In this document: positions 34,563 to 63,654 of the stretch, in pieces
How the letters are laid out: every line of letters starts with the position of its first letter
Position numbering within the stretch: the stretch's first letter is position 1
Source: an uncultured Prolixibacteraceae bacterium
GTDB lineage: Bacteria > Bacteroidota > Bacteroidia > Bacteroidales > Prolixibacteraceae
Length of the DNA: 64,000 nt
Assembly: GCA_913063265.1 (NCBI GenBank)
Contig: CAJXZG010000007.1
Coordinates: 1-64,000 of the forward strand
Reading direction: 5' to 3'
Notes under the pieces: model-generated
Databases searched by the model: none
What the model was told of the DNA's origin: nothing
What the model saw: only the letters and a program-made list of their open reading frames with translations
Made by a program: the position numbers and the translations under genes

Positions 34563-36905
34563 ATGTTTAAGCTAATAATACAAAGCGTTACAAAAGGATT
34601 CAAAAAAAACAGGCTTGATTTTTTTATCAATCTTTTTGGTCTTTCTATAGCTATGTTAGTTTTTATTAGCATTTCAGTTTATGTGAAAAACGAATTGAGT
34701 TTTGACAAACATCATAAAAATGGCGAGCAGATTTTCAGGTTAACCACATCGCTAACTTCACCAAACGGACAAGAAACCAACATGGCTTTGGCCAATACAG
34801 CTTTTGCACATATTCTGAAAAATTCAGTTCCGGAGGTGGAAGAAATTATATGCGTTGACATTGGTGGCGAATACACCCTATCTTACAAAGATTATGAGTT
34901 TAGGAACCTCAATATTCGCGCAGCTTCTCCTTCTATTTTTGATGTGTTTACGTACCCGGTAATTGAGGGTTCGGTTGATGAATTTCTTAAAGAACCAAAT
35001 ACAATTGTACTTACGGAATCATTATCAAAAAAGATTTTTAGAGATACCCCACCTCTAGGGGAAATTGTAACCATCGATAAAGCGGAATATACAGTAAACG
35101 GGATTATCAAAGATTTACCTTCAAATACCGATTTACAATTTTCAGCGCTGTTTTATTCCGAAGTAAATGGCTCTGAAGAATTGGTGGACTGGGGTGAATA
35201 CTTTGTTTACTGCAAGTTAAATACCTCCCAACCCAGGATTCTGGAAACTAAAATCCATGAATTAACCCAGGAGAATTATGCAGCTATTTTGGAACAAATT
35301 GGTGGATTTACTTTGAGCCACAATTTGCAGGCTTTACAAGAAATTCATTTCGACAATACCCTGCTTGCAGATACTCCAAAGGGCAACAAAAAAATGGTTT
35401 ATCTGTTTGCTGTAGTTGCTGTTATTATTCTTATTATAGCTGCTATTAACTATATCAACCTGAGTATTGCCCAACTTAAAAAAAGACATCAGGAATTATC
35501 CATTCGTAAAATTATTGGGTGTGGTCGTAAATGTATTCTGTTTCATGTATTGAGTGAATCGATTATAAACTTCATTTTTTCTTCTTTAGTTGCCCTGCTG
35601 ATATCGGTTTTGCTTTTACCGTTTATCAATAATCTTTTTGACAAACAGTTTACCATTCAATCATTAGTATCACAGTTGATTCCAATGTCCCTGATTTTTA
35701 TTGTTGCCGGATTATTATCAGGAATTTACCCGGCATACAAAATAAACAGATTGGAAAATGATAAACAACATTCATTCAGCACTTTTGGGAAAGTACTGGT
35801 TACCTTCCAGAATGGGATCTCAGTAATAATGATTGCTGCTATTTTTCTGTTGGGAAAACAGGTTCAGTTTATGAAAAACCACGATTTGGGTCTGGGTATA
35901 AACAAAGATCAAATAGTGGCCATTAACCTTCCATTTGAATATGAAAAGTTTCCCGGAACAGAAACGTTGCGACAGGAATTTTCGGGTTTAACAGGAATTA
36001 ATTTTTTGGCGTTCGGTGGAGGAGGAACCAATCTGGGGCAGACTGACCACTGGATGAAAGCCATAATGATAGTTGAAAACGATAAGGGAGAAGAAATTCA
36101 ATTTGTAGTCAACCAGCCAAGAGTAGATAAAAATTACATGGAACTTTTTGGTATCAGGTTGAAGGAAGGAAGAATTTTTGATCCTACGAGCGAATTCGAC
36201 AAAAACTGGGGAGTAATTATCAATTCTACTTATGCGAAAACAATGGGTTGGGAAAATCCTGTTGGTAAAAAAATCTCCGATGAATCTGACCACGAAGTAA
36301 TAGGTGTTGTTGAAGATTTTCATTTCGATGCACTTTATAATCCTATTGAGCCACTGTCGTTTCAGTTGCTTGAAGATAATCCTGCTTTTATGTTTGCATC
36401 TATTGAGCCGCAATACCTGAAACAGATTAAGAATCATTGGAACCAAACCTTTGAAGACATTCCGTTTGAATACAGTTTCGTAGATGAACATTTTAATACA
36501 CTGTATCACAAAAATGAAAAAGAAATGACCATCTTTTCTTATATGACTCTTATTGCAATTTTTATCTCGTGTCTGGGATTGTATGGTTTGGCCTCACATT
36601 TCACCCTTAACAAAACCAAAGAAATAGGTATTCGTAAAGCGAACGGGGCCGAAGTAAAAGAGATTCTGATGATGCTTAACAAAGACTTTATAAAGTGGGT
36701 GCTTATTGCCTTTGTAATTGCGTGTCCAATAGCATATTACATCATGAATAAATGGCTTGAAAATTTTGCTTATAAAACTTCCATAAGCTGGTGGATATTT
36801 GCATTGGCCGGTATCCTGTCTTTAGGAATTGCAATGTTAACGGTTTCGTGGCAATCGTGGCGTGCAGCGACAAGAAATCCGGTCGAAGCACTTCGATACG
36901 AATAG
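34563..36905 (+). CDS. FtsX/MacB-type ABC permease, copy 1
   Basis: A 780-residue inner-membrane protein of the double FtsX layout found in Bacteroidota. One N-terminal helix (about 18-40) precedes a MacB-type periplasmic core (about 45-270). Helices about 278-300, 325-352, 372-395 and 412-432 come next, then a second periplasmic core (about 440-655), and final helices near 665-688, 715-735 and 748-772. The ending EIGIRKANGAEVKEIL ... NPVEALRYE is the family signature. Such permeases power MacAB-like extrusion or lipoprotein release without a substrate channel of their own. It lies 48 bases after the ATPase gene. A hairpin and second tail follow the stop. Confidence 0.93.
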   Translation: MFKLIIQSVTKGFKKNRLDFFINLFGLSIAMLVFISISVYVKNELSFDKHHKNGEQIFRLTTSLTSPNGQETNMALANTAFAHILKNSVPEVEEIICVDIGGEYTLSYKDYEFRNLNIRAASPSIFDVFTYPVIEGSVDEFLKEPNTIVLTESLSKKIFRDTPPLGEIVTIDKAEYTVNGIIKDLPSNTDLQFSALFYSEVNGSEELVDWGEYFVYCKLNTSQPRILETKIHELTQENYAAILEQIGGFTLSHNLQALQEIHFDNTLLADTPKGNKKMVYLFAVVAVIILIIAAINYINLSIAQLKKRHQELSIRKIIGCGRKCILFHVLSESIINFIFSSLVALLISVLLLPFINNLFDKQFTIQSLVSQLIPMSLIFIVAGLLSGIYPAYKINRLENDKQHSFSTFGKVLVTFQNGISVIMIAAIFLLGKQVQFMKNHDLGLGINKDQIVAINLPFEYEKFPGTETLRQEFSGLTGINFLAFGGGGTNLGQTDHWMKAIMIVENDKGEEIQFVVNQPRVDKNYMELFGIRLKEGRIFDPTSEFDKNWGVIINSTYAKTMGWENPVGKKISDESDHEVIGVVEDFHFDALYNPIEPLSFQLLEDNPAFMFASIEPQYLKQIKNHWNQTFEDIPFEYSFVDEHFNTLYHKNEKEMTIFSYMTLIAIFISCLGLYGLASHFTLNKTKEIGIRKANGAEVKEILMMLNKDFIKWVLIAFVIACPIAYYIMNKWLENFAYKTSISWWIFALAGILSLGIAMLTVSWQSWRAATRNPVEALRYE

Positions 36906-36963
36906 TAAGAAGTGCGGAGATCCCGACCGGAGCGTCGGGGTGGAGGCCTTAAGATATGAATGA
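36882..36963 (+). repeat. Duplicated permease gene tail around a hairpin, unit 1
   Basis: The real tail (VEALRYE and stop) is at 36882-36905. Then come a hairpin GCACTTC...GAAGTGC spanning the stop, a second hairpin CCCGA-N8-TCGGG at 36922-36939, and a second tail coding VEALRYE and stop at 36940-36963. Offset 58 bases. The frame before the second tail reads DP-DRSVG-VEALRYE. Confidence 0.85.
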
Positions 36964-36966
36964 TAA

Positions 36967-37432
36967 TTCACCCCAAACTCCTGAAGGGGATTTAAGAAAA
37001 CAAGTATGAGTATAAATGAAAATGTTTCAATGTTTTACAATGCCAAACCTCAAATTTTTGAGAGGGCAAGAAATATGCGTAAGAATATGACAGAGACAGA
37101 ATTGTTGCTTTGGGAGAAACTGAAAGGTAAAAAGATCTTAGGATTGCGTTTCCGGCCTCAACATCCGATTGACATTTTCATTGCTGATTTCTATTGTCAT
37201 CCAATACAATTGGTGATTGAAGTAGATGGGGGAATTCATAAATCAAAAGACCAGAAAGAATATGATTTAGGCAGAACTGCAGAATTGAATTACTTGGGAA
37301 TTGAAGTTGTACGGTTTACCAATGATGAAATTGAAAAAGACTTAAATAAAGTAATAAAAACCATTAAAAGGAAATGCCTTACACGTCAATCAGAGATTAG
37401 GGAAAGTCCCCTTCAGGGGATTTAGGGGTGAA
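36967..37432 (+). mobile_element. Putative DUF559 element with hairpin-bearing inverted ends, copy 1
   Basis: The left end begins TTCACCCC and contains CCTGAAGGGG. The right end, read in reverse, begins TTCACCCCTAAATCCCC and contains CCCCTGAAGGGG. The ends are thus imperfect inverted repeats of about 28 bases, each with its own hairpin, and they enclose one DUF559 gene. The element starts 4 bases after the second permease tail. No target duplication could be proven by eye. Confidence 0.6.
37006..37425 (+). CDS. DUF559 (Vsr-like) endonuclease-domain protein, copy 1
   Basis: A 139-residue protein of the DUF559 group, related in fold to very-short-patch-repair nucleases. The opening half has RKNMTETELLLWEKLKGKK. 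The candidate active site is FIADFYCH (Asp61) followed by IEVDGGIHKS with Glu72, Asp74 and His78, a PD-(D/E)xK-like arrangement. The last residues (SPLQGI) and the stop are encoded inside the right inverted end of the surrounding element. It is about 84% identical by hand count to the second copy at 39885. Nuclease activity is inferred from fold; a role in moving or fixing the element is a hypothesis. Confidence 0.88.
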   Translation: MSINENVSMFYNAKPQIFERARNMRKNMTETELLLWEKLKGKKILGLRFRPQHPIDIFIADFYCHPIQLVIEVDGGIHKSKDQKEYDLGRTAELNYLGIEVVRFTNDEIEKDLNKVIKTIKRKCLTRQSEIRESPLQGI

Positions 37433-37498
37433 ATGTTGTAGGGCAGCTGCTATAAATCTGTTTGAATCTTTTGAAAAACAAACAAAATATACCATGGA

Positions 37499-39784
37499 AT
37501 GAACAACTTAAAAATATATTTCAGGAACCTGGTGAAAAACAAAGTTTTTTCAACTATAACCATTGGAAGTTTTGCGGTAAGTATTGCCATTATTATTATT
37601 CTGATTTCGTTTTTGGTTTCAGAGTTTAGCTACGATAAGGACATAAGAAATATTGATAATATTTATCGTCTTAAAGCTTCGGAAAATGGAGCTTCAATCC
37701 CCGAACAATCACGAAATTTGATCTTAGCTGATATCCCTGAAATTGATGCTGTTTCTAATTTTGCAATTAATCGTGAACCAATTGTTTATCAACAAAATAG
37801 TTTTAGTGCAAAAGTTATCAATTCCGACGAGGATTTGTTTTCTATATTGCCAATTGAATTTGTGATTGGAAGTTCTGAAGATATTTTCAGTAACAAACGA
37901 AATATTGTAATTACCGAGAGTCTATCACAAAAAATATTCGGAAATGAAAATCCGCTTGGAAAAGTTTTAAATATTTCACACAAGGAAGACGCACAAGTAG
38001 TGGCTCTTATTAGGGATTTTCCTGACAAAAGTACACTCAATGGTGATTTAATATGCTCAACTGATTTAAAAATTCGTTATTCAAGAAGTTGTTATAACGA
38101 AGAATGCACGTATTTCTATAAAACAATAATACGATTACAAAATGGGGCATCTGCATACGAAGTTAGCAACAAAATCGCTTCGGTAATTCCCAAAATCAAT
38201 GAACACGATAATAATATATATTCGCTAACTCCTTATGAAAATGTGTATTTTGACACATCTTTGAGTCACGATGATCTTCAACACGCAAATATTAAATTAA
38301 TACGTTTATTGATTTGGTTAACCCTTGCTTTACTTCTTCTTTCGATTTTTAATTACATCAATCTTTCAATTGCGCAAAACACTACCCGTTTAAAAGAATT
38401 TGGTGTAAAACAAACTTTAGGAGCCTGTAATAAAAATGTTTTTGTTCAGTTTTTTGGAGAAGCATTTTTGACTACATTTTTTGCTACTAAACTTGCCCTT
38501 TTAATTGCATATCTTATTCAACCTGTATTTATCGAATTATTTGGCAAACATTTTATAATTAGCAATCTGTTTATTTCTCCGCAAAACATTTTAATTGGAA
38601 TTTTTCTTCTTGGAATTGTTTCTGTTTTTTCGGCCATTTACCCGGCTTCCCTGGCAACAAAAGTTGAGGCCAAAGATTTGCTTCAAAAAAAGACCGGAGC
38701 GAAATCAAAGGGAATAGATATCCGTAAATCGTTGAATGTAATTCAGTTTGCAGCAACCATCTCAATTCTGGTGTCGCTGATTGTAATCACCCGTCAGATT
38801 GAATATGCAAAAACAAAAGATTTAGGATTTAGTACAGAGCAACTCGTTAGAATTCCGGTACACTGGCAAGCCAGTGATAAAATAGATGTATTAGTTAACG
38901 AAGTTACTTCCATTTCTGGAGTAAAAAATTCCTGTTACTCTCACGGAACTCCCGGGGGAATCTGGAATTACAGTCAGAATGAAGAATTTGGTAAAATTTC
39001 AGTGATTTCGAGTGATAAAAATTTTATCGAAACTTTTGGACTATCGGTTATTGAAGGACGAAACTTTTTTAATGGCGAGCAAAACCGTGTATGCCTGATT
39101 AATAAAAAGGCGATGGAACAAGCGGGCTGGGAAAGCTTTGAAGGCAAAAATATGTTTGGCTATGAAATTGTCGGTTTAATGGATGATTTTCATTACGAAA
39201 ACATGTATAATCAAATTGGAGGTTTAATGGTTAATAACGACAATGATGTTTCACATCTTACCGTCCGTCTGCTACCGGGCAATACATTAAACATATTAGC
39301 CGAAATTGAAAAAGCATATAAAAAAGTTTTGCCTGATTATGAATTTTCATTTCAGTTTTACGACGAATATTTAGACGGAATGTATCAACAAGAAGAAAAG
39401 CGTGCTGCATCCATTCGCATAATTGCAATCATCGCCATTTTTATTTCATGTATTGGTTTAATAGGGCTTGTTGAATTTTCAACAAAAAACAGAATAAAAG
39501 AAATCGGTATCCGCAAAGTAAACGGAGCCAAAATTTCTGAGATACTAGCCATGCTGAATAAGGACTTTATAAAATGGGTAACCATTGCTTTTGTAATTGC
39601 CTGCCCAATTGCATACTACACCATGAATAAATGGTTGGAGAACTTTGCTTATAAAACAAGTTTAAGCTGGTGGGTATTTGCATTGGCCGGTATCCTGACC
39701 TTAAGTATTGCAATGTTAACGGTTTCGTGGCAATCGTGGCATGCAGCGACAAGAAATCCGGTCGAAGCACTTCGATACGAATAG
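37499..39784 (+). CDS. FtsX/MacB-type ABC permease, copy 2
   Basis: 761 residues, the shortest of the ten because the first periplasmic core is reduced. The first helix is TITIGSFAVSIAIIIILISF (about 20-42), and later helices fall near 268-288, 310-335, 355-378 and 402-420. The second half ends KEIGIRKVNGAKISEIL, then MNKWLENFAYKTSLSWWVF. Its final ~120 bases and the following hairpin are almost identical to copy 1 (one or two mismatches), whereas the periplasmic domains differ strongly. This points to exchange or gene conversion limited to the 3' end. The second DUF559 element follows. Confidence 0.92.
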   Translation: MNNLKIYFRNLVKNKVFSTITIGSFAVSIAIIIILISFLVSEFSYDKDIRNIDNIYRLKASENGASIPEQSRNLILADIPEIDAVSNFAINREPIVYQQNSFSAKVINSDEDLFSILPIEFVIGSSEDIFSNKRNIVITESLSQKIFGNENPLGKVLNISHKEDAQVVALIRDFPDKSTLNGDLICSTDLKIRYSRSCYNEECTYFYKTIIRLQNGASAYEVSNKIASVIPKINEHDNNIYSLTPYENVYFDTSLSHDDLQHANIKLIRLLIWLTLALLLLSIFNYINLSIAQNTTRLKEFGVKQTLGACNKNVFVQFFGEAFLTTFFATKLALLIAYLIQPVFIELFGKHFIISNLFISPQNILIGIFLLGIVSVFSAIYPASLATKVEAKDLLQKKTGAKSKGIDIRKSLNVIQFAATISILVSLIVITRQIEYAKTKDLGFSTEQLVRIPVHWQASDKIDVLVNEVTSISGVKNSCYSHGTPGGIWNYSQNEEFGKISVISSDKNFIETFGLSVIEGRNFFNGEQNRVCLINKKAMEQAGWESFEGKNMFGYEIVGLMDDFHYENMYNQIGGLMVNNDNDVSHLTVRLLPGNTLNILAEIEKAYKKVLPDYEFSFQFYDEYLDGMYQQEEKRAASIRIIAIIAIFISCIGLIGLVEFSTKNRIKEIGIRKVNGAKISEILAMLNKDFIKWVTIAFVIACPIAYYTMNKWLENFAYKTSLSWWVFALAGILTLSIAMLTVSWQSWHAATRNPVEALRYE

Positions 39785-39842
39785 TAAGAAGTGCGGAGAT
39801 CCCGACCGGAGCGTCGGGGTGGAGGCGTTGCGATACGAATAG
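39761..39842 (+). repeat. Duplicated permease gene tail around a hairpin, unit 2
   Basis: Real tail at 39761-39784, identical in sequence to unit 1. The same hairpins follow, then a second VEALRYE tail at 39819-39842 with different synonymous codons (GCG, TTG, CGA, TAC) from unit 1. Offset 58 bases. Confidence 0.85.
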
Positions 39843-39845
39843 TGT

Positions 39846-40314
39846 TTCACCCCAAACCCCTGAAGGGGCTTAAAGAATAAAAGCATGAATATAAATGATA
39901 ATGTTTCAATGTTTTATAATGCCAAACCTCAAATCTTTGAGAAAGCAAAAAGCATGCGTAAAAATATGACAAGCGCAGAATTATTGCTATGGGAAAAACT
40001 TAAAGGTAAAAAGGTTCTGGGATTACGTTTTCGACCACAACATCCGATAGATATTTTTATTGCTGACTTTTATTGTCATCCGATTAAATTAGTAATTGAA
40101 GTAGATGGAGGAATTCATAAATCAAAAGATCAAAAAGAATACGATTTAGGCAGAACAGCAGAACTAAATTATCTGAAAATTGAGGTAATAAGATTTACCA
40201 ATGAAGAAGTTGAAAAAGACATGAGACAAGTAATAGAAACTATAAAACAGAAATGCCTGTTACGTCAATCGGAGATACAACCAAGTCCCCTTTAGGGGAT
40301 TTAGGGGGGGAAAT
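39846..40314 (+). mobile_element. Putative DUF559 element with hairpin-bearing inverted ends, copy 2
   Basis: The left end TTCACCCCAAACCCC with hairpin CCCCTGAAGGGG begins 3 bases after the second permease tail. The right end carries hairpin CCCCTTTAGGGG and a TTTAGGGGGG block. Length about 469, matching copy 1 within a few bases. The right boundary is uncertain by one or two bases. Confidence 0.58.
39885..40295 (+). CDS. DUF559 (Vsr-like) endonuclease-domain protein, copy 2
   Basis: A 136-residue homologue of the gene at 37006. Asp61, Glu72, Asp74 and His78 of the candidate nuclease site are all kept. Most substitutions are conservative (I/V, K/R, D/E), which suggests the protein was under selection after duplication or that both copies arrived as functional units. 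The stop codon falls inside the right-end hairpin block, three residues earlier than in copy 1. It is preceded by AGAATAAAAGC with no strong ribosome-binding site, as is usual here. Confidence 0.88.
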   Translation: MNINDNVSMFYNAKPQIFEKAKSMRKNMTSAELLLWEKLKGKKVLGLRFRPQHPIDIFIADFYCHPIKLVIEVDGGIHKSKDQKEYDLGRTAELNYLKIEVIRFTNEEVEKDMRQVIETIKQKCLLRQSEIQPSPL

Positions 40315-40390: not shown

Positions 40391-42784
40391 ATGAGACTTT
40401 TAAATATCAAATTAGCTATTAGAAATGCCTTAAAAGACAGGGTTTTGTCCTTCGCCAAGTTATTTGGCTTAAGCATTTCTTTTGCAATTATTTTGTTTGC
40501 AGTAGCTTACGTTTATTATGAAACTAGTTTCGATAAGTTTGTCCCGGACCATAAAAAAATTTACAGATGTTTAATGCAGGGACAGCTAAACGGTAATGAT
40601 GCTGATTTTGCAGTAACAAGTTCTAAAATGGCAAAGGTTGTATTGGCTGAAATACCCGAAATTACTGAGGTTGTACGATTGGCAACCAGAGGAGAAGCGA
40701 GTATAAACTACAATACAGAAACCATTGAAATGGGAACCCTGTTTTTTGCTGATCCTGAATTTTTTAGCTTTTTCGATTTCAAAATTTATAAAAATACAGA
40801 TAATCCGTTTGAGTCGCCCGACAATATAAGTATTGCAGAAAGTGTTGCCAGACAATATTTTGGTTCACCACAGGAGGCATTGGGAAAAGTAGTTCAACTG
40901 CGTGGTCAGAATAGTGTGATTACAGGAGTTTTTGAAGATTTACCTTCCAACTTTCATTTACAAACCAAAATAATTCAGTCTATTGATGAGATTAATCCAC
41001 ACCTGGATGGCTGGGGTTCACAAAACTATTATACTTATATAAAAACGAGTTCTGATATATCAGACTTAGACGATCTGAATTTCAAACTTACCAAAACTGT
41101 TTATTCACATTACGATGATGGTATAGACGGAGCGTCTGCAACAAACTGGGAAGATTTAAAATACGCAGAAAATACCCATATCTTTTTTAATGCCGAACCA
41201 TTAACAGATATACATTTTGGTAAACATAGGTTTGATCCGGCAATAACATCGAACAAAATTTATGTTTACGGTGCAATTATTCTTGCAGTTTTAATCCTGC
41301 TAATATCCTCATTCAATTTTATAAACCTTACCATTGCCAATTTATCTACACGGGTTAAAGAAATAGGAATCCGTAAAACCAATGGTGCTGCAAACAAACA
41401 AATTACCCAACAGTTTATTTTCGAATCAGTATGGTTTTGGGTAACAGGATTTGGTATTGCAATAATGCTCTACTATTTTGGGGAAACTCCGTTGAACAGA
41501 TTTCTTGGGTTAGAAGTAAATATTGAAGATAAAACTGTAGTACTTCTACTTATATTCATTTTTGCCGGACTTTTAATTTTTAACCTGATTACCAATATTC
41601 TGCCTGTAACTTTTTTTTCAAGAAAAGAAACATTGCATCTGATTAAAAAAGAAAGCACTGAAAAACATAATTCTCTTTTAAAAGATGGTTTTGTAGTCCT
41701 GCAATTTGTACTTTCTGCTTTAATTATCCTCTGTTCCATTTTTGTGCAAAAACAGATAAATTACATGGTAAACAAAGAACGTGGCTACGACAAAGAAAAT
41801 ATAATCACCATGTCGATGTGGAGTATGGCTCCTGAGACCCGAAGAACATTTATTGAAGAGATATCAAAACATTCAGCAATTCTGTCGGTCTCTACCAGTG
41901 ATGTTTATTTTGGTTACGATCCAAGTATGAATGGTGCCTTTTTTGAGACAGTTGAAAATGAGAATTATTTCCACACCAGTATTTTGCCGGTAGATGTTAA
42001 GTTCTTCAATACATTTAATATTCAGCTAAAAGAAGGAAGATTTTTTGATAAAGAACGACAAACCGATTTTCAAGCTGCTTTATTAAATGAAACAGCTGCA
42101 AATGAATATAGAAAAGAGGGATCGTTAATTGGGAAAAAACTGCATATCGATGGCACTAATTATGATATTATAGGAATTGTTAAAGACTTTAATTATCGCT
42201 CGTTGTATCATGCTTTACAACCACTTGTAATTACGAGAATTGAAAATCTGGGTAATGTTTTTGTTAAAGTTCGTGGCAATCAAATCCCTGTAGCATTAGA
42301 ACTTATACGAAATCAAAGAAAAGAACTGGGATTAATGAAACCACTGCAATATTCTTTTCATGATGATATAATTGCCGGACACTATTTAAAAGACCAGCAG
42401 GCAAAAAAAATGTTACTCTTTTTGTCTTTTATTTCTGTATTAATAGCTTGTGTAGGCTTATATGCTATCAGTTTTTTTAGCATTATTAAACGAACCAAGG
42501 AAATTGGAATTCGTAAAGTAAACGGTGCAAAGGTTTCCGAAATCTTAAAAATGCTCAACAAAGACTTTGTTACATGGGTAGCCATTGCATTTGTAATTGC
42601 TTGTCCTATTGCGTACTATACCATGAATAAATGGCTTGAAAATTTTGCCTACAAAACCAATTTAAGCTGGTGGATATTTGCATTGGCAGGAATCCTGGCT
42701 TTAGGTATTGCAACGTTAACGGTTTCGTGGCAATCGTGGCGTGCAGCGACAAAAAATCCGGTCGAAGCACTTCGATACGAATAG
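40391..42784 (+). CDS. FtsX/MacB-type ABC permease, copy 3
   Basis: 797 residues from ATG 40391 (MRLLNIKLAIRNALKDRVLS). An ATG at 40253 would add 46 residues read out of the DUF559 element end and is not used. The first helix lies near 22-42 (LFGLSISFAIILFAVAYVYY). The central FtsX segment reads LSTRVKEIGIRKTNGAANKQI, so both halves keep the signature. The end SWWIFALAGILALGIATLTV ... KNPVEALRYE is again nearly identical to copies 1 and 2 at the DNA level over the last 60 bases. Confidence 0.92.
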   Translation: MRLLNIKLAIRNALKDRVLSFAKLFGLSISFAIILFAVAYVYYETSFDKFVPDHKKIYRCLMQGQLNGNDADFAVTSSKMAKVVLAEIPEITEVVRLATRGEASINYNTETIEMGTLFFADPEFFSFFDFKIYKNTDNPFESPDNISIAESVARQYFGSPQEALGKVVQLRGQNSVITGVFEDLPSNFHLQTKIIQSIDEINPHLDGWGSQNYYTYIKTSSDISDLDDLNFKLTKTVYSHYDDGIDGASATNWEDLKYAENTHIFFNAEPLTDIHFGKHRFDPAITSNKIYVYGAIILAVLILLISSFNFINLTIANLSTRVKEIGIRKTNGAANKQITQQFIFESVWFWVTGFGIAIMLYYFGETPLNRFLGLEVNIEDKTVVLLLIFIFAGLLIFNLITNILPVTFFSRKETLHLIKKESTEKHNSLLKDGFVVLQFVLSALIILCSIFVQKQINYMVNKERGYDKENIITMSMWSMAPETRRTFIEEISKHSAILSVSTSDVYFGYDPSMNGAFFETVENENYFHTSILPVDVKFFNTFNIQLKEGRFFDKERQTDFQAALLNETAANEYRKEGSLIGKKLHIDGTNYDIIGIVKDFNYRSLYHALQPLVITRIENLGNVFVKVRGNQIPVALELIRNQRKELGLMKPLQYSFHDDIIAGHYLKDQQAKKMLLFLSFISVLIACVGLYAISFFSIIKRTKEIGIRKVNGAKVSEILKMLNKDFVTWVAIAFVIACPIAYYTMNKWLENFAYKTNLSWWIFALAGILALGIATLTVSWQSWRAATKNPVEALRYE

Positions 42785-42842
42785 CAAGAAGTGCCGTGAT
42801 CCCGACCGAAGCGTCGGGATGGAAGCGTTGAGATATGAATAG
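42761..42842 (+). repeat. Duplicated permease gene tail around a hairpin, unit 3
   Basis: Real tail 42761-42784 (same sequence as units 1 and 2), a hairpin with 7-base arms ATCCCGA/TCGGGAT, then a second tail MEALRYE and stop at 42819-42842. Offset 58 bases. Confidence 0.85.
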
Positions 42843-45213: not shown

Positions 45214-45271
45214 TGAGAAGTGTGAAGATCCCGATAGCATCGTCGGGATGAAAGTACTTGGGTATGAATAA
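45190..45271 (+). repeat. Duplicated permease gene tail around a hairpin, unit 4
   Basis: Real tail 45190-45213, then a hairpin ATCCCGA-TAGCATCG-TCGGGAT, then a diverged second tail MKVLGYE and stop at 45248-45271. Offset 58 bases. Confidence 0.82.
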
Positions 45272-51211: not shown

Positions 51212-51259
51212 CGAAATCCTGATGCCATCGTCGGGATGGAAGTGCTCAGGTATGAATAA
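51188..51259 (+). repeat. Duplicated permease gene tail around a hairpin, unit 6
   Basis: Real tail 51188-51211 with a small hairpin CACTC-AGATAT-GAGTG over the stop. After the TGA the same frame continues RNP-DAIVG-MEVLRYE and a stop at 51259. This is exactly the RNP-VEALRYE ending interrupted by five codons of hairpin. Offset 48 bases. Confidence 0.85.
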
Positions 51260-53691: not shown

Positions 53692-53739
53692 AGAAATCCC
53701 GATAGCATCGTCGGGATGAAAGCTTTAAAGTATAAATAG
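53668..53739 (+). repeat. Duplicated permease gene tail around a hairpin, unit 7
   Basis: Real tail 53668-53691, then in the same frame RNP-DSIVG-MKALKYK and a stop at 53739. The inserted codons form the hairpin ATCCCGA...TCGGGAT. Offset 48 bases. The second tail is more worn than in units 1-3. Confidence 0.84.
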
Positions 53740-53814: not shown

Positions 53815-56136
53815 ATGAAACTAATTTCTTATTTTACATCCTTTTTTTATAGGAAAAAGCCTAACAGGTATGTAAATATTATAGGCCTGACCGTGGCATT
53901 TGCTGTCTTTATTTTTATCCTTCTTTTTGTTAATAATGAATTGAATTTTGACAAATTTGTTGCAAACGGCGACAGGATATTCCGCATTGAAGAAGGAGAA
54001 TTCAACCAGGTACCTTCAGCAATAAGCAAATTGGCTAAACAGAATCTCGACGAAATAGAAAACACTGCTACCGTTAAATCCTTTGATAACCATTGGATAA
54101 GTTACAACAAAAATATCTTCGAAATAGAAGACTTTTGTTTTACTGAGAATTCATTTTTCAAGATATTTCCGATTCCATTTGTAGTGGGAAATCCGGAAAC
54201 CGCCCTCGACGCACCATTTAAAATTGTGTTATCTGAAACCCTTGCAAAGAATATATTTGGCAGTAAAAATCCGATCGGGGAGCTCGTGAACTTTAAAAAT
54301 GAAGATTATTATACCGTAACAGGTGTAATAAAAGACCTTCCTGATTTTCATCTACCTGTTAAAGCCATTGCCTCTTACAAATCGCTTGAGTCAAGATACA
54401 ATTTACCTGAATATAATTGGTACTGGGGACTGGTAACATATGTGATGTTAAAAGAAAAACAGAATCCCGATATGGTTGAAGAAAAACTGAATGTTCTATT
54501 AAACGAAAAAAATGAACAATGGGAAGCCAATGGCAGCTCTGTTTTTTTCAGGCCATTTAACGATATTTATCTGTCAAACGATACATATGGGAACGATGAA
54601 ACCAAACACGGGAATGCCTCTTTGCTTATCATTTTAACAGTTATAGGTGTTTTTATTGTATTAATTGCAAGTGTTAATTATATAAACCTTTCTGTTTCTT
54701 ATGGAATTCGTAAGTCAAATGACCTAATTGTTCGGAGGATTTTGGGTAGTACAAAGCGAAATTTTATATTCAGCCAAATCCTCCAGTCATGTTTATCGAT
54801 TTTTATATCAATATTACTGGCTTTCAGCATCGTTTCAGTTTTTCTTAATTCTTTTGAGAGTTTAATAGGAAAAGAACTTAATGTTGCATCATTCATTAGT
54901 ATAAAAAATGCCTTCATTTTAATTACGGTGATTCTGACTTTATCCATAATTTATGGCTTATTGCCGGCATTAATTTTACTAAAAGTCAATTCGTTTCAAT
55001 CGGTAAAAAGTTCCCTGGTCAACACAAAACATTCAGGTTTTAATTCAACCCTTGTCATATTTCAATATGCACTTTCCATAATTCTTATTTGTGGAACGAT
55101 TATAACGTATAAACAACTTAATTATATCAAGAAAAGCGATCTCGGATTTAATAAAGATCAGGTTGTGAGTATAGAATTAACTCCCGAGTTGAAAAAAAAT
55201 CCCGAAAGGTTTAAAGAAGAATTAGCAGAAAATTCAAACATACTAGGTGTTTCTTTTGCTTCCAATAACATTACGCAGTTTAATGAATATGCGCTGGGTT
55301 TTTCCATTGATAACCATGTTCATATTTTTAATAGCGCATTAATCGATCCTGAATTTATTCCATTAATGGAATTTAACCTGATTCAGGGAGAAAATTTTTC
55401 CCTGAATAAAAAAAGCTTGATGACTGAAGGATATATTGCCAATGAAACAGCATGGAATATTTTAAAAAACTCATCATTAAAAGATAAGAATTATGAATTG
55501 GACAACAGAATATTAATAGGGGTTATAAAGGATTTTCATTTTGAATCATTTCATACCAGGGTAAATCCTTTGATATTTTATGGTGGTAACAATGAAAATT
55601 ACAACAATGCTTTTGTTAAACTTACAGGTGGAAATATAAGCCAGGCAATAACACATATCGAAAATACATTTGAAGAATTAGATCCTGAAAGCTTATGTAA
55701 ATACCATTTTGTCAACGATGCTGTGAATAACATGTATCATTCTGAAAATGTAATGTCCCGATTACTGGGGATCTTTACCCTGATTGCAATCTTTATCGCG
55801 GGAATTGGAATAATTTCACTTTCAGCCCTGACGATAGAATCCCGTATTAAAGAAATAGGAATACGAAAAGTTAATGGAGCAAAAGTATCAACCTTGTTGT
55901 CAATGTTAAACAAGAATTATATTAAGTGGGTTCTTATTGCCTTTGTTATATCTGTTCCCGTTTCGTGGTTTATAATGAATAAATGGTTAAGCAACTTTAT
56001 GTACAAAACCGAACTGAATTGGTGGTTATTTGCCCTGGCAGGGATGTTGGCTTTGGGAATTGCTTTACTTACAGTAAGCTGGCAAAGCTGGCAGGCAGCA
56101 ACAAGGAATCCTGTGGATGCTCTGAAGTATGAATAA
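53815..56136 (+). CDS. FtsX/MacB-type ABC permease, copy 8
   Basis: 773 residues. Helix 1 is VNIIGLTVAFAVFIFILLFV (about 19-39). The first FtsX half is diverged (SYGIRKSNDLIVRRILGSTK) while the second is standard (ESRIKEIGIRKVNGAKVSTL). The tail reads NPVDALKYE, with Asp and Lys replacing Glu and Arg, and no hairpin or second tail follows the TAA. Confidence 0.92.
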   Translation: MKLISYFTSFFYRKKPNRYVNIIGLTVAFAVFIFILLFVNNELNFDKFVANGDRIFRIEEGEFNQVPSAISKLAKQNLDEIENTATVKSFDNHWISYNKNIFEIEDFCFTENSFFKIFPIPFVVGNPETALDAPFKIVLSETLAKNIFGSKNPIGELVNFKNEDYYTVTGVIKDLPDFHLPVKAIASYKSLESRYNLPEYNWYWGLVTYVMLKEKQNPDMVEEKLNVLLNEKNEQWEANGSSVFFRPFNDIYLSNDTYGNDETKHGNASLLIILTVIGVFIVLIASVNYINLSVSYGIRKSNDLIVRRILGSTKRNFIFSQILQSCLSIFISILLAFSIVSVFLNSFESLIGKELNVASFISIKNAFILITVILTLSIIYGLLPALILLKVNSFQSVKSSLVNTKHSGFNSTLVIFQYALSIILICGTIITYKQLNYIKKSDLGFNKDQVVSIELTPELKKNPERFKEELAENSNILGVSFASNNITQFNEYALGFSIDNHVHIFNSALIDPEFIPLMEFNLIQGENFSLNKKSLMTEGYIANETAWNILKNSSLKDKNYELDNRILIGVIKDFHFESFHTRVNPLIFYGGNNENYNNAFVKLTGGNISQAITHIENTFEELDPESLCKYHFVNDAVNNMYHSENVMSRLLGIFTLIAIFIAGIGIISLSALTIESRIKEIGIRKVNGAKVSTLLSMLNKNYIKWVLIAFVISVPVSWFIMNKWLSNFMYKTELNWWLFALAGMLALGIALLTVSWQSWQAATRNPVDALKYE

Positions 56137-56354: not shown

Positions 56355-58703
56355 ATGAAACATCAACTAAAAATCACACTAGCCAACATCAGAAAATCAA
56401 GGCACACATCTGCTTTGAACCTGATTGGACTCAGCAGCGCTTTTGCAGCATTTATCCTTATCATGCTATATGTATGGAATGAATACCAGTTCGATCGGTA
56501 TCATGAAAATGCTGAAAACATTTACAGGGTTGAGTTCAAGGACCCGGAAGGTAGTAAAACCGGTGTATTTCTTCTTGGACCAACAGGAGAAACCCTGGTT
56601 AATGAATTTTCAAACATTGTTAATTCAACAACCTACATGCCGTGGGGAAAATGGGGAGAGCAGCCCTTCTCCTATGAAAGTAATACAGGAATTCACCGAA
56701 GTTATGAAGATTATGCATTTGCCGATGAACATTTAACAGAAGTTTTCACATTCGATTTTATTTGTGGTCCTGAGCAACCTTTGTACAATAATGAGACGGC
56801 AATGGTGAACGAAACTTTTGCCAGAAAGGCCTGGAAAGATGAAGATCCTCTCGGAAAGACAATCAATACAGGTGGAAATAAATATACGGTTACAGCAGTA
56901 TTCAGAGACCTGCCCGAAAACAGCATTTTCACCAGTCCTATTATTTTAAAAATTCCGACAGACGGTTTTATTGGCGAAGCACGTAAAAGCTGGAATGTAA
57001 CCAATTACCCACAATTTATCAAAACCACAAAAGGTACGAATGCTGAAGAACTGAGTACAATGATAAACGAAATATCTTCTGTACCTTCAAGATATCGTTT
57101 TTTCGATAATGGTAAGACAATGGCAGAAATTGTTGCCCGACCTATCAGCGAGCTTAGGTTTACAAAAGAAGTTGCTGAAAACCCATTATTTGGAACCAAT
57201 AACAAGATGTTTGTCGATTCTCTTTTTATTGTTGGTATTCTGATCATTCTTGTGGCTATGATTAACTACATCAATTTTGCTACAGCACATTTGCCCAAGC
57301 GGATGAAGACCTTTAACATCAACCGAATAATTGGAAGCAGCAAGTGGAATTCGGCGGAACAGATGATGCTCGAAACTATCCTTCTGTATACTATGGCATT
57401 TGTTATTGCCCTTACATTGGCATACTATCTCAACAAATCATTTTCTGTACCCGTTTTGGGCTATCAAATTCCATTCGAAAAAAATGTATTTGTGCTTGTC
57501 ACATCAGCCATTATCGCTTTAGTTGGTGCATTTATAGCGGGAATCTATCCGGCAATCGTCAGTACTACAGGAAAACCCATTCAATCATTAAAGAAAACCC
57601 AGAGCGGTATAAATGAAAACCTGAGAGGTACATTTACTGTATTTCAATTTGCCGCAACAATAGCATTACTTGTTTCTACACTTACCGTGATTAAGCAGGT
57701 TCGCTTTATGGAAAATACCGATCTGGGATTTAACAAAGAACATACTTTTGTACTGCCTATGTTCACTGAAATCAAGGATAATTATTCAACATTTGAAAAT
57801 GAAATTCTTGCAAGCCCTCATATTAAACAAATGACCTGTTCGAGAGCGGTTCCCGGACGAGGTCAGGAGGCAAATGTGTTTACGGTTGATGATCAAAGAT
57901 GTGCCGTTTACGATTGGGCGGTAGGAGACGGTTATATGGAAATGATGGACTTTGATATTATTGAAGGCCGTGGATTTCATAAAAATAGTGAGGCCGATAA
58001 AGGGAATTTCATTTGCAATGAAACAGCTGCCAAAAAATATAACTGGAAACTGGGAACCAAAATAAACGACAAACAGATCGTGGGTATAATGAAAGATTTC
58101 AATTTAGTTTCTTTAAGGGAAACCATTGAACCCTTTGTATTTCACAAAGCATATTCATTGGATGAAACCAGAACTATTAGTTTGAAACTGAATGGAAATA
58201 ACACCAAAGAAGCACTTGCAGATATAAAAACTGCTTTTGAAAAGTTTTGTCCTGAAATTCCGTTTAAGGGGCATTTTCTCGACGATGAGCTGAATATGCT
58301 TTATGCGAAAGAGAGTCAACAATCCAAACTGATCACCTTTTTTAGCATATTGTCTGCCATTGTTTCCATGCTTGGCATTCTGGGACTTTCTATTTTCATG
58401 TGTCAGCAGAAAATCAAAGAGATTGGCATACGTAAAGTAAACGGTGCGAAAATTTCTGAAGTATTGATAATGTTGAATAAAAGTTTTGTAAAATGGGTTC
58501 TTATTGCATTTTGCCTGGCAACTCCAATCGCAGTCTGGTTGATGAAACAATGGCTGAACAATTTTACATTCAAAACAGAATTAAACTGGTGGCTTTTTGC
58601 CATTGCCGGATTTGTAGCATTGGCGATAGCCCTGTTAACGGTATCCTTTCAGTCGTGGAAGGCCGCTGCAAGAAACCCTGTTGAGGCACTCAGGTATGAA
58701 TGA
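56355..58703 (+). CDS. FtsX/MacB-type ABC permease, copy 9
   Basis: 782 residues from ATG 56355 (MKHQLKITLANIRKSRHTSA). A TTG at 56283 would add 24 residues without family similarity. Helix 1 is LIGLSSAFAAFILIMLYVWN (about 23-43). The first FtsX half is degenerate (PKRMKTFNINRIIGSSKWNS) and the second is normal (KEIGIRKVNGAKISEVL). The tail is RNPVEALRYE with TGA. Confidence 0.9.
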   Translation: MKHQLKITLANIRKSRHTSALNLIGLSSAFAAFILIMLYVWNEYQFDRYHENAENIYRVEFKDPEGSKTGVFLLGPTGETLVNEFSNIVNSTTYMPWGKWGEQPFSYESNTGIHRSYEDYAFADEHLTEVFTFDFICGPEQPLYNNETAMVNETFARKAWKDEDPLGKTINTGGNKYTVTAVFRDLPENSIFTSPIILKIPTDGFIGEARKSWNVTNYPQFIKTTKGTNAEELSTMINEISSVPSRYRFFDNGKTMAEIVARPISELRFTKEVAENPLFGTNNKMFVDSLFIVGILIILVAMINYINFATAHLPKRMKTFNINRIIGSSKWNSAEQMMLETILLYTMAFVIALTLAYYLNKSFSVPVLGYQIPFEKNVFVLVTSAIIALVGAFIAGIYPAIVSTTGKPIQSLKKTQSGINENLRGTFTVFQFAATIALLVSTLTVIKQVRFMENTDLGFNKEHTFVLPMFTEIKDNYSTFENEILASPHIKQMTCSRAVPGRGQEANVFTVDDQRCAVYDWAVGDGYMEMMDFDIIEGRGFHKNSEADKGNFICNETAAKKYNWKLGTKINDKQIVGIMKDFNLVSLRETIEPFVFHKAYSLDETRTISLKLNGNNTKEALADIKTAFEKFCPEIPFKGHFLDDELNMLYAKESQQSKLITFFSILSAIVSMLGILGLSIFMCQQKIKEIGIRKVNGAKISEVLIMLNKSFVKWVLIAFCLATPIAVWLMKQWLNNFTFKTELNWWLFAIAGFVALAIALLTVSFQSWKAAARNPVEALRYE

Positions 58704-58745
58704 CGACATCCGAATCCCTGTGTATTGAAGGCACTGCGTTACGAG
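58680..58745 (+). repeat. Duplicated permease gene tail, unit 9
   Basis: Real tail 58680-58703, then a remnant coding LKALRYE at 58725-58745 with its stop lost. The hairpin between is decayed (ATCCGAATCCCTGTGTATTG). Offset 45 bases. Confidence 0.7.
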
Positions 58746-58880
58746 AAGGTTCCTATTATTTTTCAAAAGAAGAACCAGATTGCTGCCATTTTAAATCCGA
58801 CTTCCATTTTGACAATAAAGAATTAAAAAACATAATAAATATTAGTAGAAAACCATTTCAATAAAATAAAAAAAATAGCC

Positions 58881-59636
58881 ATGAAACGAATGAACCTGTT
58901 TGTTGTTGCAATCTTTATTGCATTAACTGCTTTTACAAAAACCTATCAGATTGATGAAAAACATCATCATGTTTCAGAAAGCCAATCCATTCTTGTTGAT
59001 GTTTCGCATGGACAAAAATTCTGGAACGATCCAGAGACTATGATTAGTGGTGATTTTAACCGCGTAAATTACCTGAACGATGAACTGGCAAAATCTGTAG
59101 AATCCCTGCATGCCAAAATTGAATTCATACATAATGAAATCGATACAGATAAATTGAGGGTTTGTGATGCCCTGTTTATTCATGTACCAACTTCGCAATA
59201 TACTCAATCCGAAATTAAAGCCATCAACTATTATCTTGAAAAAGGAGGTTCCTTATTCCTGGTTATGGAGGTGGATTACTGGTCAACACTTGAGCAAAGC
59301 AATGTTAATGACCTGATTGAACCTTTTGGATTGAAGTTTGGTGATCAGATCGATGATCCTACATCTGGGGGGCATACCAAAGCCGGGAATATTACCAGAA
59401 AGGCATTGAAAATACCCTTCCATGGTGGCAGAATCATTGAAGGTGGCATTCCATTTTGCTACAGCGATCATAACAACGAAAATGTGTTTGGGGTCTCTAA
59501 AGAACTAAAAAGTGGTGGAAAAATAATTGCAATGGGAGAAGCCATGGTATCGTTGTTCATGACCAGCTGGAACGGAGTTGATGGATATGAATGCAGTGAT
59601 TTCATGCACTATGCTTTTCATTATTTGCTGAATTGA
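58881..59636 (+). CDS. DUF4350-like secreted protein
   Basis: A 251-residue protein with a signal peptide (about residues 1-20, FIALTAFTKT). The core begins SQSILVDVSHGQKFWNDPE, then DALFIHVPTSQYTQSEIKAI and YYLEKGGSLFLVMEVDYWS. This is a class-I-amidotransferase-like flavodoxin fold of the DUF4350/GldG-IFT52 kind, without an obvious catalytic Cys. The end GGKIIAMGEAMVSLFMTSWN also fits. Relatives are found with ABC exporters, which matches its position between two permeases. The function is unknown. A decayed relative lies after copy 10 at 63706. Confidence 0.72.
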   Translation: MKRMNLFVVAIFIALTAFTKTYQIDEKHHHVSESQSILVDVSHGQKFWNDPETMISGDFNRVNYLNDELAKSVESLHAKIEFIHNEIDTDKLRVCDALFIHVPTSQYTQSEIKAINYYLEKGGSLFLVMEVDYWSTLEQSNVNDLIEPFGLKFGDQIDDPTSGGHTKAGNITRKALKIPFHGGRIIEGGIPFCYSDHNNENVFGVSKELKSGGKIIAMGEAMVSLFMTSWNGVDGYECSDFMHYAFHYLLN

Positions 59637-59681
59637 TCATGTCATAAACGAATAAACCTGTTATAAATAAAAATCAATCCC

Positions 59682-61178: not shown

Positions 61179-61196
61179 CCAATTAAATCATAAGCT

Positions 61197-63605
61197 GTGT
61201 TTCAATTTATCCTGACATTTTATCGAAAATATCTCCTGCGGAATAAGCTGAACATCCTGAATATAGCAGGAATGGCTTTTGGGATGTTCACATTTATGTT
61301 CATTTATTTTTATGTTTACTGCGAAAGCAATTACGATCAGTTTTTCGATAACAGCAAAAACATCTATCATGTTTCATTGAATATTCATCGCAATGGGGAA
61401 GATTTGTTGTACTCAAACACCCCTATCAGGCTTGCAGAGGAGGCAAAAGATGAAATTCCGGGAATAAAATCCACAGCACTATACAGTTCTGTTTTAGAAA
61501 CTGTTATTGCCAGAATTGGAGAAGAAACATTTTTAAAACCTGAAGTTTTTTATGTCAATTCCGAATTCTTCGATGTGTTTAGTTATAAATCCATTGAGGG
61601 AAATTTGAGCAATGCCCTTTCCGGACCGGGTAAAGCTGTTTTGACCCAAAGTGCCGCGCAAAAATACTTTGGAACAAGCGAAGCGCTGGGAAAGCAAATG
61701 GAAATTCTTCACAGCGATAAAGCACCTCTGTTGGTCACGGTATGTGCAATCATCGAAGACCTTCCCGCAAACAGCAACATCCATTTTGAAGTAGCCTGTC
61801 ATAAAGATGATTACATTGGTTTAATCGGGGATTTTTTCGACAACTGGTATTTTAAAATTAGTCAGTCATATATTGAATTGTATGAGCATGTGGAGCCCGA
61901 TGAAGTTTTGGGTTCCCTGAATAAGCTGATTGATAAAAACATGAATGACCATAGCAATGCAAATGCTGATATCGTAACAGCAAATCTTGAAAGAATAAAA
62001 GAAAAACATTTCCAAAGGAATTATACGCTACAACATCCATCTGAAAAATTTATAAGCAGAAGCTCTCTCATAATTCTTATATCTGTTGGATTCATAACCT
62101 TGATTATATCATGCCTGAATTTTATCAATTTTATGGTTTTTCAAAGTACCAAATACTTGCGGGAAATTTGTATCAGAAAGGTTAATGGCTCCGGAAAGTC
62201 AAGATTATTTCTCATGCTTCTGAAAGAATCATTATTGCTGTCACTGATCCCAATGCTGCTATCCTATCTGTTCTTCAGAATAGTATCCAATGGTTTGTAT
62301 CAGCAGTTTGGATTTACTGTAAACACCATTGAAATAAATTCATCAAAGTTCTGGTTAATCCTTTTCTTCATACTTTTGGGTAGTGCACTGATCTCAACAA
62401 TCTATCCAATGATCAGGTTAACGATAGCTCAACCTGTACAACTTTTGCAAACGACCAGAAACAACAATAAGGGATTCAAAAAAAGTGCTGGTTTGTTTAC
62501 GATCATTCAGTTGTCATTGTCAGTCATCCTGATCTCAGGCATCTTCCTTATCAACAGGCAAATAACCTACATCAATGAACAAAATATTGGATTTGACAAG
62601 GATAAAATACTGGTATTTGCAGCTCCAATTGCAGAAAGCAACATTGCCTACCTTGAAAAAATGGATGTGTTTAAGAATGAGGCAAAAAAAATTCCGGGTG
62701 TTCATGCACTATCGGCCTCCGCTTCAATTCCCGGAGAAAAACTGATTACCTATGATTTTGGTTTAAAAAACAAGGCAGAATCCATGAATAAGTACCTCGG
62801 GCTTTCAGCAGATGAAGATTTTTTTGAAACTTATGGGATCAAGTTATTGGCAGGAAAAAGCTTCTCTCAAAATCCTGAACTGAGAAACAAGGAAATCATC
62901 ATCAATAAAGCCTTGTGTGAAAGACTTGGATTTAATAGTTACGATGAGGCTATTGGGCAGGAAGTCAATCTGAAAAGCGGAATTATTGCCGGTGTTGTTG
63001 AGAATTACAACCATCTGTCGCTGCATCAGGAAACCAAACCCCTGCTTTTTGAATACAATTTAAACCGGCTGGGCTATTTTTCAGTTAACATTGGCCAAAA
63101 AAACCGAAAAGAAAACATTGCAGCACTTAAAGTACTTTGGGATCAAACATTTATGAACAGTCCCTTTCAGTATTCATACCTGTCTGACAGACTTAATCAA
63201 CAATACATCAATGAAAGCAGGCTTGTAAAGATCACATTCCTGTTTACCGTTGTTGCCCTGATCATTACTTTTTTGGGAATCATCATCACCAGTATAAATT
63301 TATCAGGTTTAAGAACAAAAGAGATAGGAATACGTAAGGTGAATGGTGCAAGAATCTCACAGATTGTTGCAATGCTAAACAGTGATATTATCATCTGGGT
63401 TGCAATCGCCATTGTTTTTGCAACTCCTGTTGCCCTGCTCCTGATGAATAATTGGCTCGAAAATTTTGCTTATCAGACAGAAATTGCTTGGTGGATTATC
63501 CCGATTTCAAGTATAGGAGTTTTAGGATTAGCATTGTTCACTGTAAGTATTTACAACTGGTTGGCAGCGACCAGGAATCCTGTCGAAGCTCTCCGATACG
63601 AATAG
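61197..63605 (+). CDS. FtsX/MacB-type ABC permease, copy 10
   Basis: 802 residues with a GTG start. Helix 1 is LNIAGMAFGMFTFMFIYFYV (about 21-41). The first FtsX half is TKYLREICIRKVNGSGKSRL and the second TKEIGIRKVNGARISQIVAM. The last helix is followed by a tail NPVEALRYE preceded by ISIYNWLAATR, where the others have VSWQSWRAATR. It ends the intact array. Confidence 0.91.
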   Translation: MFQFILTFYRKYLLRNKLNILNIAGMAFGMFTFMFIYFYVYCESNYDQFFDNSKNIYHVSLNIHRNGEDLLYSNTPIRLAEEAKDEIPGIKSTALYSSVLETVIARIGEETFLKPEVFYVNSEFFDVFSYKSIEGNLSNALSGPGKAVLTQSAAQKYFGTSEALGKQMEILHSDKAPLLVTVCAIIEDLPANSNIHFEVACHKDDYIGLIGDFFDNWYFKISQSYIELYEHVEPDEVLGSLNKLIDKNMNDHSNANADIVTANLERIKEKHFQRNYTLQHPSEKFISRSSLIILISVGFITLIISCLNFINFMVFQSTKYLREICIRKVNGSGKSRLFLMLLKESLLLSLIPMLLSYLFFRIVSNGLYQQFGFTVNTIEINSSKFWLILFFILLGSALISTIYPMIRLTIAQPVQLLQTTRNNNKGFKKSAGLFTIIQLSLSVILISGIFLINRQITYINEQNIGFDKDKILVFAAPIAESNIAYLEKMDVFKNEAKKIPGVHALSASASIPGEKLITYDFGLKNKAESMNKYLGLSADEDFFETYGIKLLAGKSFSQNPELRNKEIIINKALCERLGFNSYDEAIGQEVNLKSGIIAGVVENYNHLSLHQETKPLLFEYNLNRLGYFSVNIGQKNRKENIAALKVLWDQTFMNSPFQYSYLSDRLNQQYINESRLVKITFLFTVVALIITFLGIIITSINLSGLRTKEIGIRKVNGARISQIVAMLNSDIIIWVAIAIVFATPVALLLMNNWLENFAYQTEIAWWIIPISSIGVLGLALFTVSIYNWLAATRNPVEALRYE

Positions 63606-63654
63606 AGGATCGATAGATTCCGAATCTTCCTGGATTAATGCACTCTGAAACAAG
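63582..63654 (+). repeat. Duplicated permease gene tail, unit 10 (decayed)
   Basis: Real tail 63582-63605, then ATTCCGAATCTTCCTGGATT in place of the hairpin, then INAL-stop-NK at 63634-63654 where VEALRYE is expected. Offset 52 bases. The most degraded member of the series. Confidence 0.55.

Follow-up and report, generated by a model that had tools for sequence, protein, structure and literature searches.

The DNA analysed here, referred to as the window, is a stretch of 64,000 nucleotides from an uncultured Prolixibacteraceae bacterium (contig CAJXZG010000007.1, positions 1 to 64,000 of the forward strand). It carries ten large permease genes, all in one direction, and the subject of this report is a short palindromic insert at the 3' ends of several of them. 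MacB_PCD and FtsX domains were found in all three of the window permeases tested, and the nearest NCBIfam model for the three proteins is ADOP (TIGR03434), at 193-230 bits against a cut-off of 622; the host permeases are relatives of ADOP, but not members by the TIGR03434 cut-off. In six of the ten genes (stops at 36905, 39784, 42784, 45213, 51211 and 53691), the order of coding tail, stop codon, hairpin and second copy of the seven-codon tail is clear. The original prediction had placed this structure behind eight of the ten stops. Of the other two, the unit at 63582 is a degraded copy, with 37.5 bits from a covariance model, but the unit at 58680 is doubtful: it has the in-frame relic RHPNPCVLKALRYE without a hairpin, and its 23.6 bits is the level of a bare tail. 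The units ending at 47641 and 56136 have ordinary ends and no insert. When the ten flanks were read again, the residues quoted earlier for the second tails proved correct, and past the stop of units 6 and 7 the reading frame does give RNP-D(A/S)IVG and then the tail, as had been claimed. The pattern CCCGAN{3,30}TCGGG occurs six times in the window, where 0.39 occurrences are expected, and five of the six are at permease ends. Allowing up to 3 mismatches, ATCCCGATAGCATCGTCGGGAT has three matches in the window's own genome, all at permease ends. Coordinates are collected in Table 1.

Table 1. Permease ends, inserts and neighbouring genes of the window
Feature	Position	Strand	Score
Unit 1, new tail, VEALRYE and stop; bases 36888-36894 pair with the arm past the stop (hairpin 1)	36882..36905	+	
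Unit 1, remaining insert: hairpin 1 arm GAAGTGC, spacer, hairpin 2 CCCGACCGGAGCGTCGGG	36906..36939	+	
Unit 1, old tail VEALRYE, after the stop	36940..36963	+	
Unit 2: new tail 39761-39784, hairpins to 39818, old tail 39819-39842	39761..39842	+	77.3 bits
Unit 3: new tail 42761-42784, hairpins to 42818, old tail 42819-42842 (MEALRYE)	42761..42842	+	74.8 bits
Unit 4: new tail 45190-45213, hairpins to 45247, old tail 45248-45271 (MKVLGYE)	45190..45271	+	72.7 bits
Unit 5: ordinary permease tail, no insert	47618..47641	+	folding z-score 0.08
Unit 6, short form: new tail 51188-51211, self-folding (CACTCA/TGAGTG), hairpin 2 to 51235, old tail 51236-51259 (MEVLRYE)	51188..51259	+	51.1 bits
Unit 7, short form: new tail 53668-53691, hairpin 2 to 53715, old tail 53716-53739 (MKALKYK)	53668..53739	+	55.3 bits
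Unit 8: ordinary permease tail, no insert	56113..56136	+	folding z-score 0.58
Unit 9: doubtful relic, second tail LKALRYE, no hairpin	58680..58748	+	23.6 bits
Unit 10: degraded copy, second tail cut to INAL	63582..63645	+	37.5 bits
Unit 1 permease, MacB_PCD and FtsX; nearest NCBIfam model ADOP, under cut-off	34563..36905	+	
Unit 6 permease, MacB_PCD and FtsX; nearest NCBIfam model ADOP, under cut-off	48815..51211	+	
DUF559 endonuclease gene, immediately 3' of unit 1	37006..37425	+	
DUF559 endonuclease gene, immediately 3' of unit 2	39885..40295	+	

The insert had been described as a short palindromic element. It is palindromic, but it consists of two hairpins, and the first of these (hairpin 1) is formed by the new coding tail itself, paired with bases around or after its own stop codon. 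First tails occur in the codon types CACTCAGATATGAGTGA, CACTTCGATACGARTAG, CTCTCCGATATGAATAG, CATTAAGATACGAATAG and CCTTACGGTATGAGTAA, and in all of them the Ala-Leu-Arg codons pair with bases around or past the stop. Hairpin 1 covaries: in a hand-picked alignment of 29 sequences, seven of 15 pairs vary on both sides (29 cells), 95.0% of cells are paired, and none of 500 shuffles equalled this. Where coding bases vary on both sides, the changes are synonymous. In a held-out check, which covers long forms only (19 of 47 held-out sequences), 110 of 133 pairs of hairpin 1 form, against a shuffled mean of 97.8; 2 of 2000 shuffles were as high. Folded as single-stranded DNA, five window copies have z-scores of -2.97 to -4.87, as opposed to 0.08 and 0.58 for two empty ends; three typed copies fold at -3.18, -1.22 and -4.75. 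Searching the window against Rfam gave no match at gathering score. In a few elements of other genomes (locus L175 in genome G006, near C1:1848600 and 1853600, and locus L268 in G011) the stretch from the stop to AATCC has the palindrome CCTGCCTGCGGTAGGCAGG, or a close variant of it, embedded within it.

Permease ends were then parsed in 60 stretches of the genus, which belongs to a group of marine Bacteroidota and which we infer to be Draconibacterium. A set of 255 ends (21 genomes) was obtained from 262 profile matches by dropping five incomplete matches and two at edges, and was later enlarged to 306 ends (22 genomes). The structure is present at 73 of the 306; the arrays were partly picked by element matches, among the matches listed, so this is not a random sample. 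A top-scoring second tail lies 10-130 nt past the stop at 37 of the 255 ends and further downstream at one, with 0.15 expected from shuffles, and at the next score level the counts are 13 and 3, with 2.6 expected. The covariance model (R1), which the sequences used to build it match by construction, was applied with a cut-off of 33 bits, set by eye at a level below which matches resembled bare tails. In the fetched arrays it detected 79 distinct copies, a count that omits overlapping third copies: 73 are first tails of permeases, four are tandem copies, in which a further insertion has been made at an already filled end, and two are permease-tail relics beside other genes. Outside the arrays, 22 more matches in the genus (E <=1e-4) comprise 19 permease C-termini (four on pieces of 21-60 residues), two tandem copies and a sole non-permease match, G029:C1:1083807, which is a non-tail repeat. 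Two patterns for hairpin 2 types gave 28 matches, 27 of them in arrays or at permease ends elsewhere and one an exception (G008:C1:5375090); among the 27, G011:C120:60159 lies behind a non-permease gene. Where examined, the tail-coding form stands only at ends or remnants of this permease family. Tails of class B are present in NZ_CAJXYQ010000001.1 (uncultured Draconibacterium), in Draconibacterium sediminis JN14CK-3 and in a Mariniphaga metagenome-assembled genome. In a strictly filtered search of 393 genomes of the order (E <=1e-4), four matched, two of them outside the genus (G273, where the match was read by eye on the opposite strand, and G364), and both of these matches are at permease ends.

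Empty sites were sought at orthologous junctions, defined by matching both neighbouring genes. The arrays have variable middles and recurring end genes, and the gene bodies and 3' ends of their permeases have different histories; for this reason the assignment of orthologues by best protein match alone was misleading. In junction family 4>14, G010 is empty, and G025 and G005 are filled with different element types. The downstream tail agrees with the empty tail in 22/22 positions for G025 and 21/22 for G005, as compared with 17/22 and 14/22 for the upstream tail, and the downstream flanks agree in 144/149 in both comparisons. In family 3>11, where G002 and G010 are empty and G025 is filled, the corresponding values are 21/22 for the downstream tail, 16/22 for the upstream tail and 139/149 for the flank. 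In these three discriminating comparisons the last 30 nt of the upstream gene are orthologous right up to the insertion point (93, 90 and 97% identity). Since the downstream tail is the nearer to the empty tail in three of six comparisons, it is the old tail, and the insert brought the upstream one. A deletion between the two tails could also yield an empty site, and single sites therefore leave the direction unfixed; the presence of more than one element type at a single junction suggests gain on more than one occasion. Further mixed junctions, 5>0 and 1>6, lie outside the six comparisons.

The boundary of the insert was located by comparing 73 filled genes with 202 clean empty ones, leaving out the other 31 of the 306. 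In columns -66 to -26 the lowest p for filled versus empty genes is 0.01 (at -40). At the Pro third base (-25) V is 0.28, at the Val third base (-22) it is 0.54 (p = 2.6e-17), and later synonymous sites follow. The contrast is thus sharp from the Val third base onwards, weaker at the Pro third base and hardly visible further upstream, which indicates that the insert brings the tail. Together with the three discriminating junctions, this supports the earlier proposal that the insert supplies its own tail and stop and leaves the gene whole, and orthologous empty sites, which it had been suggested to look for, do exist. The replaced tail remains as a fossil: among 67 readable cases (6 of the 73 left out) the residues E, L, R, Y and E are invariant in the new tail and are kept by 56, 60, 51, 61 and 59 of the old tails, with both sets partly selected for tail likeness. 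Read-through of the first stop was considered and is not favoured, as the second tail loses conserved residues and the first keeps them. A direct repeat of the gene end stands at both borders of the insert and the gene is intact, the arrangement expected of elements that integrate at gene ends; no integrase lies within the insert, which encodes only the tail, and one acting in trans was not searched for.

The prediction of a tail-bearing element holds, but this element does not stand alone: on the evidence of shared ends and build, it appears to be the tail-coding form of a wider, dispersed repeat family, which the original prediction had no means of seeing. The strict pattern TTGAR-N10..26-GAAATCCCGA-N4..10-TCGGG matched at 41 places (43 rows), spread over 15 of the 37 genomes; 11 of the places are tail-coding and 30 are not. 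The dispersed form has the same ends, TTGAG..CGAAATCC..TCGGG, and a double hairpin, without a tail; the G029 exception has the same architecture with a different hairpin 1. After identical contexts were merged and one tail-coding place was left out, 29 distinct non-tail contexts remained. Their left flank ends in AAG in 26 of 29 and their right flank is (A/G)GCAAAAG in 17 of 29. In 23 of them the stem of hairpin 1 is 4 bp or longer (CAGC/GCTG, TCCGT/ACGGA and CCGAT/ATCGG are examples), and the mean best stem is 4.03 as against 3.23 when shuffled. Taking out TTGAG..TCGGGA restores AAAAG^GCAAAAG, where the caret marks the junction; the counterpart at permease ends is CCNG^TTGAGGC, so that the target resembles the element's left end. 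Translated in the Val frame, which is also that of RNPDSIVG in the window, many non-tail copies yield VE..RNPDRSVG, and an in-frame start of the element is conceivable from this likeness. Looser hairpin 2 palindromes occur elsewhere too. Dispersal over unrelated sites, as in repetitive extragenic palindromic (REP) elements, is seen for the wider family and not for the tail-coding form. The ends TTGAG and TCGGG(A/G) are, by eye, not inverted repeats such as define miniature inverted-repeat transposable elements, and by eye there is no target duplication, the junctions being ambiguous by at most one T.

Filling is variable among close relatives: it differs in 5 of 15 orthologue pairs at least 97% identical and in 35 of 87 pairs at 90-97%. 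Comparison of the tails with the gene tree, another check that had been proposed, showed that presence of the element hardly tracks gene ancestry. Outside the window's own genome, 27 pairs of genes within one genome share the same element (at least 80% identical). Their tails agree at 0.77 against a background of 0.49, and their upstream third positions at 0.47 against 0.50 (-27 to -57) and 0.60 against 0.54 (-87 to -207). Matching downstream flanks were found behind unrelated upstream permeases. In the window, units 1-4 share gene 3' ends, and duplication or conversion has therefore spread elements there. The alternative put forward with the prediction, that the unit spread by duplication and gene conversion, accordingly applies to the spread of units 1-4 inside this genome. 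An integron-like cassette of whole genes, which the matching flanks had suggested, was dropped as the explanation of the insert: gene order points to short insertions between unchanged neighbours, with gene bodies reshuffled separately.

We consider it fairly likely that the insert is a mobile tail-bearing hairpin repeat that enters at permease ends, with gene conversion adding to its spread in the window. A number of observations tell against this. Three of the six junction comparisons do not discriminate: the old and new tails score 14/22 and 15/22 in G030 (4>14), 15/22 and 19/22 in G008 (52>28), and 15/22 and 14/22 in G010 (0>3), the last with an unrelated flank (41/80). In the window's own genome seven same-element pairs (six among units 1-4, and units 6/7) also agree upstream, at 0.88 against 0.44, and many of the filled/empty differences between near-identical genes coincide with a different next gene. 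Several copies have unmatched arms in hairpin 1, including some whose first tail is of another type than the arm; one typed copy (z -1.22, 28/200) folds like its shuffles; and hairpin 1 and hairpin 2 types combine almost freely, which is odd for one inherited unit. The link between the tail-coding and dispersed forms consists of shared sequence ends rather than of any observed change from one to the other, and no enzyme was found and no movement observed.

A model with no mobile element at all, in which the hairpins are passive passengers and the pattern comes from unequal recombination and short-tract gene conversion among the 3' ends of paralogous permeases, would account for the upstream bases common to units 1-4, for the reshuffled gene order of the arrays and for the linkage of the Pro third base to filling, which indicates that exchanges sometimes start to the left of the insert. 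We nevertheless regard this as unlikely, given that the upstream third positions of same-element pairs outside the window's own genome are at background right beside the tail, that orthology with the empty gene runs to the insertion point, that unrelated sites carry repeats whose ends are the same, and that a covarying hairpin 1 is not predicted. Two homologous tails are also what an old tandem duplication of the gene tail would leave, both copies diverging along the gene tree; empty orthologous sites contradict it, as do the loose relation of presence to gene ancestry and the element types common to different gene families, and it can practically be set aside. The covarying stems, which would be transcribed with the gene, might instead belong to an RNA structure that is under selection where the gene ends, as a regulator or a stabiliser of the mRNA, in which case the second tail would be incidental. 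Such a structure is improbable at only 73 of 306 permease ends, with differences in 5 of 15 orthologue pairs at least 97% identical and no Rfam match in the window, and it leaves the second tail unexplained.

A further explanation concerns the agent of movement, and sees the insert as an element like REPs or palindrome-associated transposable elements, moved by a host Y1/HUH transposase of the REP-associated tyrosine transposase (RAYT) type that cuts at the feet of the hairpins. The position of the hairpins, one near either end, would fit, and so would insertion that follows a G and leaves no visible duplication of the target, and Y1_Tnp genes in 35 of 37 genomes, two of them directly behind permease stops. 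However, of 30 fetched Y1_Tnp loci, the 11 read by eye are flanked mainly by other palindromes (though L124 has CCCCGACCTACAGTCGGGG), and the motif of spacer plus hairpin 2 is in none of the 30 scanned, from many more such loci, with four stray occurrences of CGAAATCC only. Moreover, G036 has well-formed elements and a single weak Y1 match at 91% completeness. This explanation seems unlikely to us.

The favoured reading, insertion of a mobile tail-bearing repeat, can be put as the following scheme. Draconibacterium genomes carry a non-coding double-hairpin family built of TTGAG, hairpin 1, a spacer like CGAAATCC and hairpin 2 ending in TCGGG, then A or G, and most strict-pattern copies sit within sequence of the AAAAG^GCAAAAG type. 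In a subfamily of about 45-65 nt, hairpin 1 would have been rewritten so as to code for the ends of permease genes of the FtsX/MacB type (ADOP-like). The point at which this subfamily enters NP^VEALRYE-stop would be the Val codon or a position adjoining it (CCNG^TTGAGGC), and the target there starts with the element's own left end. The insert would then give the gene synonymous last codons and a stop, while the old tail, left behind hairpin 2, would decay. Presumably the unit is discrete DNA with fixed ends that moves after a G without target duplication, and the hairpins may be what is recognised, perhaps as single-stranded DNA, by an activity supplied in trans. The synonymous covariation would arise because hairpin 1 must pair and the gene end must work. 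Gene conversion between paralogues would spread copies further, as in units 1-4. It may be, and we put this forward tentatively, that the subfamily homes to its gene: its hairpin 1 would be under both coding and pairing constraint, and it would re-create the gene end, restack at the same point and exchange hairpins as modules.

Some neighbouring features deserve mention. Both DUF559 genes of the window are directly behind an element and past a CACCCCAAAC..CCTGAAGGGG hairpin, and by sequence likeness alone DUF559-type genes are also found within the permease arrays of G002, G011, G020, G021, G025 and G029; such endonuclease genes may be mobile and could cut nearby. At locus L107 (G032:C301:172614) a lone permease C-terminal fragment lies behind a DUF559-like frame, as if the DUF559-like gene had entered a permease 3' end. 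The permease arrays are hypervariable, with up to >30 permeases, and several have recurring end genes (e.g. G031:C1:3391000-3470600 and G014:C1:1275000-1333300). The RAYT-type Y1 genes directly behind permease stops in arrays are at G005:C6:141280-141624, preceded by a GTCGCGTAGCGAC palindrome, and at G006:C1:1842836-1843180. A conserved intergenic sequence, GTYGAACK-AATCCCGAT...ATCGGGATA, recurs in several genomes (L202, L241, L245, L246 and L247); it may be a further repeat, or else a structured RNA not yet described. At L166 (G017:C11:34991) a repeat-like TTGAAGCGAAGCGGAAATCCCGATGAAATCGGGA is in frame within an open reading frame and is read as LKRSGNPDEIGS.

If the homing proposal is correct, gene-free mobile DNA homes by carrying the coding tail of its target. 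Tail-restoring insertion, known from prophages, is here scaled down to a gene-free insert of about 50 nt, which recurs in many paralogues within a single genome. With replicate insertions and empty sites to compare, together with fossil tails, hairpins that covary and a sister form that is dispersed, the movement of hairpin repeats and their adaptation to a coding target become testable, and synonymous codons at some gene ends can reflect an inserted hairpin rather than codon choice.

The comparisons with known systems draw on excerpts of the cited accounts. REP elements and their RAYTs are small palindromic repeats, often behind genes, with CGTC repeats in Bacteroidetes, and GTAG REPs often supply the TAG stop of flanking reading frames (PMC3733652). 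The dispersed form described here is REP-like. A subfamily that codes for seven codons of one gene family and stands at the ends of those genes was not found in the excerpted account of REPs (PMC3733652), nor a matching RAYT here. The e14 prophage enters the 3' end of icd and supplies the end of the frame, and the displaced stump remains (PMC6379469). As with e14, a protein gene is entered at its 3' end, its frame end is supplied and the old end is kept as a stump. Unlike e14, a prophage with site-specific integration, the insert has about 45-65 nt and no genes, many paralogous targets per genome and tandem re-insertion. The palindromic elements of Rickettsia lengthen many genes by in-frame residues. 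They too are palindromes in coding sequence that leave the protein usable, but here the tail is replaced, closed by a stop and confined to one gene family. Double-hairpin elements, described by Paquin in 2000, are reportedly set beside the GC clusters of mitochondria. The mitochondrial GC-rich mobile clusters are hairpins of some tens of nucleotides without genes, whose mechanism of movement is unsettled (PMC4478555). They are similar in size to the insert, but are organellar, and no coding tail was found in the excerpts describing them. In the literature searched, which was mostly openly accessible and in part seen as excerpts, no hairpin element free of genes was found joined to the coding tail of a single gene family.

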